Origin: Candidatus Vallotia laricis | GTDB lineage: Bacteria > Pseudomonadota > Gammaproteobacteria > Burkholderiales > Burkholderiaceae | Assembly: GCF_020541325.1 (NCBI RefSeq) | Contig: NZ_CP047399.1 | Coordinates: forward strand, 248,001 to 312,000 | Direction: 5' to 3' | Length of the DNA: 64,000 bases | In this document: positions 62,905 through 63,224 of the stretch, one piece after another | How positions within the stretch are numbered: position 1 is the stretch's first letter | Layout: every line of letters begins with the position of its first letter | Translations under genes and position numbers: made by a program | Notes under the pieces: generated by a model | What the model was told of the DNA's origin: nothing | The model's database searches: none | Seen by the model: only the letters and a program-made list of their open reading frames with translations

Positions 62905-63224
62905 TGGTGCCCGGAGCCGGAATCGAACCGGCACGCCTCTCGGCGGAGGATTTTCTTCCCACTTCGACTTTCGCCGCCGCTACTCCTAGAGTAGGCGTTC
63001 GTGGTCTGGAGCACGCCTTCACCCTGGCTTTTGCTTTAGGTGCCCGCCGTCTGCTCTCTACACCTTCTGTAGCGCTTGAGCGCTACAGCTTGGATCGGCA
63101 TTAGCTCGAAATTGCATGCATTCAGGGCTTTTACCGAGTTTGACGGGTTTCACCTTCAGGATTTCTCTTGAAGGGCTCAAATTATGCTTGAGTCCCCTGC
63201 GTCTACCAGTTTCACCATCCGGGC
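62905..63224 (-). tRNA. tRNA-Leu(CAA) with group I intron
   Basis: The 5' exon (63224-63190, 35 bases) starts GCCCGGATGGTGAAACTGG and ends with C34. The 3' exon (62954-62905, 50 bases) supplies A35, A36, the variable arm CGCC-GAGA-GGCG, the T arm GCCGG-TTCGATT-CCGGC, acceptor TCCGGGC and an encoded CCA. Joined, they give an 85-base class II tRNA with a 7-bp acceptor stem, anticodon stem GGGGA/TCCTC (one G-T pair) and loop CTCAAAA, hence anticodon CAA (Leu UUG codons). The 235-base interruption is annotated separately. The only tRNA gene in the window. Confidence 0.92.
62955..63189 (-). ncRNA. Group I intron in the tRNA-Leu anticodon loop
   Basis: Minus-strand core elements are visible. P1: CTCAA/TTGAG across the 5' splice site. 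P2: CCTTCA/TGAAGG. P3: CCGTC with GACGG. P4: TCGGTA/TGCCGA in the conserved AATGCCGATCCAAGC block. P6: CTGTAGCGC/GCGCTACAG. P7: GAGCA/TGCTC, with the AGAGAGCAGACGGCGGGC block resembling the conserved R element. P9: CTACTC/GAGTAG. The intron ends in G directly before the 3' exon. It has no open reading frame, so it is a minimal ribozyme. Insertion is after anticodon position 34, as in cyanobacterial tRNA-Leu introns. The base before the 5' splice site is C, giving C-G instead of the usual U-G pair. Confidence 0.88.

Follow-up and report, generated by a model that had tools for sequence, protein, structure and literature searches.

The tRNA-Leu(CAA) gene in the window, the 64,000-nt stretch of Vallotia DNA analyzed here, is split by a group I intron directly after C34, and the base pair at its 5′ splice site is C-G. 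We consider it very probable that this is a self-splicing, C-G-paired intron of a laterally spread lineage residing in tRNA-Leu(CAA) genes. The genome that contains the window is one late branch of this widespread C-G lineage, notable in that no intron-free copy of the gene was found in it.

ARAGORN, run with introns allowed, places the split gene on the minus strand at window positions 63224-62905 and divides it into an 85-nt mature tRNA and a 235-nt intron inserted after tRNA nucleotide 35, i.e. after C34. The 5′ exon (63190..63224, 35 nt) ends at C34 (63190), and the 3′ exon (62905..62954, 50 nt) includes an encoded CCA; the intervening intron (62955..63189), assigned to group I and IC3-like on the strength of ARAGORN, the helix alignment and a covariance model, ends with its 3′ terminal G at 62955. 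The junctions read GACTC/AAGC...GGGAAG/AAAATCC, where slashes mark the splice sites. In the alignment, P1 (63176..63192) pairs exon C32 U33 C34 with intron G12 A13 G14 and contains the splice-site pair C34 (63190)-G12 (63178), and in the window intron this helix is extended by A1-U11 and A2-U10. The two strands of P4 occupy intron nt 52-58 (63132..63138) and 90-96 (63094..63100), and next to them lie J4/5 (nt 59-61, 63129..63131), which reads AAA in the window copy and whose nt 61 can pair with nt 87, and J5/4 (nt 87-89, 63101..63103), which reads UAA. The last base of the P4 3′ strand forms C.U rather than C-G with nt 52 in the window copy. Both strands of P7 (nt 134-138, 63052..63056; nt 177-181, 63009..63013) are 100% paired. 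All of these features are on the minus strand. The earlier note had placed a group I intron in a tRNA-Leu(CAA) gene at these coordinates, with exons forming a complete 85-base tRNA, an insertion between positions 34 and 35, a C-G pair at the 5′ splice site and an encoded terminal G; ARAGORN and a covariance model trained on UAA introns concur on the gene and the intron, and C34-G12 and the terminal G can be read directly from the sequence. No junction frame gives U-G. A shifted 5′ splice site with U-G was considered and rejected, since no C precedes the AAAA of the 3′ exon and every shift disrupts the anticodon loop.

The pairing of the proposed helices was evaluated across the eight introns of the Vallotia/Mycetohabitans genus and across 103 introns of tRNA-Leu(CAA) genes (hereafter CAA introns, as against UAA introns of tRNA-Leu(UAA) genes). 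Helices P1-P9 are paired in 84-100% of cells in the former and 83-100% in the latter, with P6a the lowest, and the core helices P3, P4, P7 and P8 reach 95-100%. In the genus introns P3, P7 and P8 are 100% paired and P4 is 95% paired, as is characteristic of a group I core, and P1, which contains the internal guide sequence, is paired in 100% of genus cells and 99.6% of cells in the 103 CAA introns. A terminal G is present in the window intron and in 148/148 introns compared. Double changes among the 103 CAA introns exceed slid controls in P2 (40 cells versus at most 11), P6a (174 versus at most 81) and P9b (21 versus 0), and are not clearly above them in P8b (12 versus at most 11) and P9 (3 versus at most 1). 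A P10 helix between exon AAA and intron UUU, which the earlier note had offered as a possibility, is possible in 100% of cells for the genus and in 87% for the CAA introns, but the same U's pair in P1, which leaves P10 no more than compatible with the sequence.

Why would such a gene be missed? A standard tRNA search without introns allowed reports zero tRNAs in the window, and with introns allowed ARAGORN finds the split tRNA-Leu(CAA) as its sole tRNA. A tRNA-Gln(CTG) with a 228-nt 'intron', also called by ARAGORN, was rejected because it sits within an apparent coding frame, which we take to be dapF. Rfam model RF00028 (Intron_gpI) finds nothing in the window even at E≤10, and no Rfam model matches at its cut-off; a match to U7 snRNA on the other strand, with 24.3 bits against a cut-off of 34 (E=0.0043), is antisense to the exon end, P1 and P2 and was taken as chance. 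The earlier note had named the lack of a group I covariance hit as grounds for dropping the intron, and the Rfam search did come out empty, yet a fitted model tells otherwise. For model R1, 14 tRNA-Leu(UAA) introns from other genera were aligned over their cores, with zero sequences from this genus or from CAA introns in training, and on the 64-kb window it gives a single match up to E=10, at 63148-62997 on the minus strand (127.3 bits, E=2.5e-34). Elsewhere in the genome it gives one further match (C2:14649-14833, 106.4 bits). RF00028, for its part, reaches its gathering cut-off of 50 bits in 0/7 related sources and, at E≤0.5, picks up 4/7, one being the Mycetohabitans ortholog (L006) with 30.3 bits; the UAA intron of the window's genome (L001), which is absent from the seven-source table, receives 41.7 bits in one search. 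Because none of the related sources reaches the cut-off and R1 scores at E=2.5e-34, the silence of RF00028 is attributed to the insensitivity of that model, and it was set aside as a judge of introns of this subtype. Genes of this kind are therefore easily overlooked, as both a standard tRNA search and Rfam miss the one in the window. According to PMC8450103, tRNAscan-SE 2.0 is not designed for group I introns and reports some in tRNA-fMet and tRNA-Ile2.

The window corresponds to C1:248001-312000 in a two-contig genome (1,064,389 and 61,393 bases, 1,125,782 in total), most likely that of an adelgid symbiont. A CAA intron is present in 8/8 genomes of the genus, half of them about 1.1-1.2 Mb in size and the other half 3.3-3.8 Mb, and the seven other genomes are 81-86% identical to the window over tRNA plus intron. 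Common to all eight, the C-G pair did not originate in this reduced genome. A pattern search with up to two mismatches for intact anticodon arms of Leu(UAA) or Leu(CAA) turned up no such gene in the eight genomes, two of which are drafts of about 80 contigs; its four matches, in three genomes, were the start of the split CAA gene in two genomes, one tRNA-Phe-like arm and one unrelated sequence. In the window's genome, ARAGORN finds no uninterrupted Leu(UAA) or Leu(CAA) gene, and its leucine tRNAs comprise GAG, UAG and CAG, which are intronless, and CAA and UAA, which are split. The tRNA-Leu(UAA) lies on the 61-kb contig (C2:14554-14906, L001), and a tRNA-Leu(UAA) with a 262-268-nt intron was called by ARAGORN at the matched loci of 7/7 other genus genomes (L246-L252). 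The view that all decoding by tRNA-Leu(CAA) depends on splicing is borne out insofar as the only such gene in this genome appears intron-split. Because both the CAA and UAA genes are split and no intact copy was found in the genome, decoding of UUA and UUG should rest on the splicing of two ribozymes. A crude count over open frames, in which overlaps between pieces were counted twice, gives 2,873 UUG and 4,774 UUA codons in about 212,000. The location of the second gene is an observation in its own right: tRNA-Leu(UAA) is on the small contig in the window's genome and elsewhere in the genus on contigs of 72,431 and 822,304 bases, taken as the Vallotia tarda plasmid and M. rhizoxinica pBRH01. 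Two published analyses (one of them PMC8692619) describe the Vallotia plasmid and the Mycetohabitans chromids as lacking tRNA genes, and it is on these replicons that tRNA-Leu(UAA) was found in this work. An essential tRNA may be one reason for keeping a small replicon.

Beyond the genus, a pattern covering both anticodons matched 22 places in 20 of 399 genomes of the order, three of them with C34. A C34-specific scan of an 84,980-species collection returned 103 stretches, of which ARAGORN confirmed 100 as tRNA-Leu(CAA) with an intron at the expected place; the scan demanded GACTC plus TTGAG, and CAA introns with another guide or arm would escape it. The remaining three were a UAA gene matched by accident (L104), which was rejected, and two unconfirmed stretches cut by the stretch end (L116, L132). 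By record title, the 100 confirmed stretches comprise 43 Betaproteobacteria, 33 Gammaproteobacteria, 20 Pseudomonadota without class, 3 Vallotia that the tool left unplaced, and 1 short contig titled Mycobacterium (L114). The latter, 4.8 kb long, carries a CAA intron of proteobacterial type, and its title is probably a binning error. Named hosts include Bordetella, Cupriavidus, Caballeronia, Paraburkholderia, Variovorax, Acidovorax, Rhodanobacter and Dokdonella. The C-G pair is thus far from peculiar to a reduced genome. Two guide-free searches of 398 and 151 genomes gave matches in 20 and 28, respectively, among them 18 leucine-type rows with C34 and one CAT tRNA; TTGAG was present in 18/18 of these leucine-type rows, and all 17 with loci were confirmed as tRNA-Leu(CAA). 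The CAT tRNA (L234, from G928) holds a 208-nt group I-like intron and was read by ARAGORN as Met, and is probably of the Ile2 type known from Azoarcus. One stretch (L129) contains a split tRNA-Leu(UAA) (827-1153) and a split tRNA-Leu(CAA) (1415-1734) in tandem, with introns that by their letters appear to differ in type and are probably not local copies of one intron. Two Alcaligenaceae loci (L107, L168), out of 123 scanned, have an intronless tRNA-Leu(CAA) within a few kb of the split one.

The splice-site pair was compared over 148 introns with ARAGORN-confirmed tRNA-Leu exons and identical genes removed, comprising 103 CAA introns (102 distinct intron sequences) and 45 UAA introns. This set excludes 27 duplicates and 18 rows without a fitting ARAGORN call. 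Eight of these 18 are second pattern starts in seven counted loci (L020, L104 twice, L117, L122, L151, L152, L172), two are the truncated L116 and L132, one is the CAT tRNA L234, and seven are GACTT rows (L091, L206, L207, L209, L210, L211, L213) that ARAGORN calls Phe or Ser with a different junction and that are probably further Leu(UAA) introns. Position 34 and intron nt 12 form C-G in 103/103 CAA introns and U-G in 45/45 UAA introns. Since C or U at position 34 is set by the anticodon, the actual result is that nt 12 remains G in both classes. The adjacent pair, between intron position +1 and nt 11, is A-U in 103/103 CAA introns, and in the 45 UAA introns it is G-U in 28, A-U in 15 and other in 2. 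With anticodon CAA, C34 and C-G rather than U-G, the window intron is filed as a related lineage and not as a member of the tRNA-Leu(UAA) intron subfamily.

A fundamental question is how a group I core handles this pair. Group I splicing is described as strongly requiring a U-G pair at the 5′ splice site (PMC6274277), and in the Tetrahymena ribozyme this pair is reported to be recognized by packed A207 and A114 in J4/5 (PMC10020454). Diagnostic positions were defined as those whose CAA base occurs in at least 80% of the 103 CAA introns and at most 35% of the 27 nearest UAA introns, in columns with at most 20% gaps, and six were identified, at intron nt 1, 2, 52, 61, 87 and 90. P1 and P4-J4/5-P5 together account for 32 of the 216 testable columns, and all six positions fall there (hypergeometric p=7e-6, with region and thresholds picked post hoc); when genus g109 is left out, or when all 45 UAA introns are used, 6/7 diagnostic positions lie in the region (p=4e-5 each). 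By alignment columns, the third base of J4/5 and the first base of J5/4 are pairable in 103/103 CAA introns versus 5/45 UAA introns. The CAA introns have 100 G-U and 3 A-U at this place, the latter in the window and two other Vallotia, and the UAA introns have 4 G-U, all in g109 (L084, L220, L221, L224), and 1 A-U, in the UAA intron of the window's own genome (L001). The pair is thus not exclusive to C-G splice sites, as five U-G-spliced UAA introns have it. Within g109, an Alcaligenaceae-like genus, the UAA introns form a graded series at these two bases, namely C.C in L083, U.C in L222 and L223, and G.U in L084, L220, L221 and L224; the U-G splice pair is kept throughout, which makes them a natural series for the receptor question.

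Where did the CAA introns come from? In a tree of 132 introns, all 101 CAA introns cluster with one UAA intron (L084) at support 100/97, and this cluster sits inside the UAA introns; constraining CAA introns alone lowers the log-likelihood by 9.2 (p-AU 0.375). The position of L084 inside the CAA clade was discarded as not robust, as a wider sample moved it to its own genus. With 146 introns, a set that leaves out two with very long branches (L104, L096), the constraint of CAA introns as a clade raises the likelihood by 31.6 (p-AU 0.83), the free search being poor; when only the 27 nearest UAA introns are kept and the seven columns at and near the diagnostic positions are taken out, it raises the likelihood by 13.5 (p-AU 0.75). 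Free searches never recovered CAA introns as one clade, giving two changes in two data sets and three in the nearest-type set, and a single clade of CAA plus g109 introns is not rejected in the 146-intron and nearest-type sets. A single origin of the CAA introns is the best reading of these sequence comparisons, short of proof.

The arrival of the intron in the Burkholderiaceae bears on whether it is ancestral there, a comparison that the earlier note had proposed. A model-based survey found such introns in 72/150 genomes of the family, and the best 30 loci comprise 23 UAA, 6 CAA (five of this genus plus L281) and 1 unclassified; the matches in other family members that could be classified as intron-bearing (L012, L013, L015, L017, L019, L020) are all UAA genes. 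The genus introns (support 98/98) group with Alcaligenaceae introns L111, L140, L179 and L199 (88/84), and the other Burkholderiaceae CAA introns from the scan (L103, L112, L133, L134, L182, L184) are scattered over at least three other places in the tree. This scatter, together with the grouping of the genus with Alcaligenaceae, suggests separate arrivals by lateral transfer. An intronless tRNA-Leu(CAA) occurs in the same family (L021); over stretches of 36 and 52 bases its two halves agree base for base with the exons of Mycetohabitans, and a similar gene lies upstream of both (71% over 933 bases). The Caballeronia split gene L134, however, has the same upstream neighbor as the Mycetohabitans gene (76% over 1,337 bases), and the intron may therefore be long established in the family and have since been lost many times and exchanged. 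The distribution in the family looks sporadic, and the ancestral reading keeps the L134 synteny in its favor. Partial tRNA copies were observed at several of these loci. A second exact 52-base copy of the tRNA-Leu(CAA) 3′ half lies about 900 bases past the gene in L021 (559-610), a pattern that an integrating element might leave, and a tRNA-Leu 5′ half lies about 180-190 bases upstream of the intact split gene in Caballeronia, Paraburkholderia and Burkholderia (L134:4465-4620; L184:5863-6020; L103:3437-3472), which in L134 and L184 ends just past the anticodon and is followed by a stretch similar in both.

We hypothesize that a guanosine bound in P7 would attack after C34, which is held in P1 by the Watson-Crick pair C34-G12, and that the freed 5′ exon would then attack after the terminal G and join C34 to A35 to give the 85-nt tRNA. 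Because the intron is conserved, the first step is expected to work on a C-G pair. The lineage would have split, probably a single time, from the U-G-spliced introns of tRNA-Leu(UAA) and moved into the corresponding site of tRNA-Leu(CAA), and then spread through Beta- and Gammaproteobacteria. As a 235-nt intron is too short for a homing endonuclease gene, reverse splicing or recombination within the exons is the probable means of this spread. Its arrival in the ancestor of Mycetohabitans and Vallotia was probably by lateral transfer, and it would be kept there as no uninterrupted gene remains. An anticodon switch, in which a split tRNA-Leu(UAA) gene mutated U34 to C in place without any movement of the intron, could apply at the origin of the CAA lineage, but for this genus it is disfavored by the exons, which appear to be those of a resident CAA gene (in Mycetohabitans identical to the intronless gene of the same family, with its similar upstream gene), and by the separate tRNA-Leu(UAA) with a more distant intron in the same genome; we regard it as improbable. 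Still harder to credit is a decaying, unspliced copy in a reduced genome. The genome is small and degenerating, a P4 end pair is C.U for C-G in three Vallotia including the window, and Rfam gives no match, but this is the sole tRNA-Leu(CAA) found in the genome, the core is otherwise intact at 127 bits, and among the four reduced genomes introns are 78-87% and exons 89-97% identical in pairwise comparison, against 47-55% for 240-nt flanks and 46-52% for a shuffled flank.

Within the self-splicing reading, the question is what the changes at J4/5-J5/4 and P4 signify. They may be part of accommodating C-G: the lineage would have swapped the near-universal U-G wobble for a Watson-Crick C-G and rebuilt the receptor, adding the J4/5-J5/4 G-U or A-U pair and weakening the P4 end pair, such that P1 still docks, and this change would have opened tRNA-Leu(CAA) as a host and left all UUR leucine decoding in Mycetohabitans and Vallotia ribozyme-dependent. 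We advance this only tentatively, at appreciably less than even chances. Adaptation of the ribozyme to cut after C, as the earlier note had put it, is plausible because the diagnostic changes cluster at the splice-site receptor; the part that does not stand on its own is adaptation as opposed to shared descent, which could alone explain the changes because they may lie on one ancestral branch. It has close to an even chance, in our estimate, that the core simply accepts C-G well enough and that the J4/5-J5/4 and P4 changes hitchhike from a common CAA ancestor. All CAA introns can form one clade, so the diagnostic changes may be a single event, and the G-U pair also occurs in four U-G-spliced introns; against this, every diagnostic position is in P1 or the known U-G receptor region, and the pair was retained as A-U in three Vallotia after a G to A change, though AT-biased mutation alone could produce that. 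The receptor changes could instead have come first, in U-G-spliced UAA introns such as those of g109, and enabled the jump to tRNA-Leu(CAA). The graded g109 series and the tolerated CAA plus g109 clade are consistent with this order of events, but g109 is not firmly beside the CAA clade in trees and its states could be an independent gain, and we think it rather unlikely. More than 100 natural C-G sequences with co-located receptor changes make it testable with natural variants how splice-site identity is read and changed.

Among the matches listed in a literature search that covered few subscription papers, judged by titles and the opening lines of abstracts, no paper on group I introns in bacterial tRNA-Leu(CAA) or on a C-G lineage was found, and the nearest known systems are as follows. 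Cyanobacterial and plastid tRNA-Leu(UAA) introns have the same site and core as the window intron, and the IC3 introns of tRNA-Leu(UAA) in cyanobacteria, plastids and proteobacteria share with it the position after nucleotide 34, the P1-P9 core and the terminal G. The CAA lineage differs from them in its anticodon, its C-G splice pair, a first intron base that is always A, a pairable J4/5-J5/4 and, in most members, U at the start of the P4 3′ strand. The cyanobacterial and plastid introns were compared through the literature (PMC4033280 and PMC2729099). The tRNA-Leu(UAA) introns compared here are 212-277 nt long. The Azoarcus tRNA-Ile(CAU) intron, the crystallized IC3 ribozyme, resembles the window intron in having an IC3 core within the anticodon loop of a proteobacterial tRNA, and differs in its tRNA, its insertion site and its U-G at the splice site; the 208-nt intron of L234 is likely its relative. 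Finally, a C-G pair at the 5′ splice site of two group I introns was reportedly described by Hur and Waring in 1995; these are said to be isolated cases. Those introns have a natural C-G pair as the CAA lineage does, whereas here the pair is found in more than 100 sequences of one lineage.
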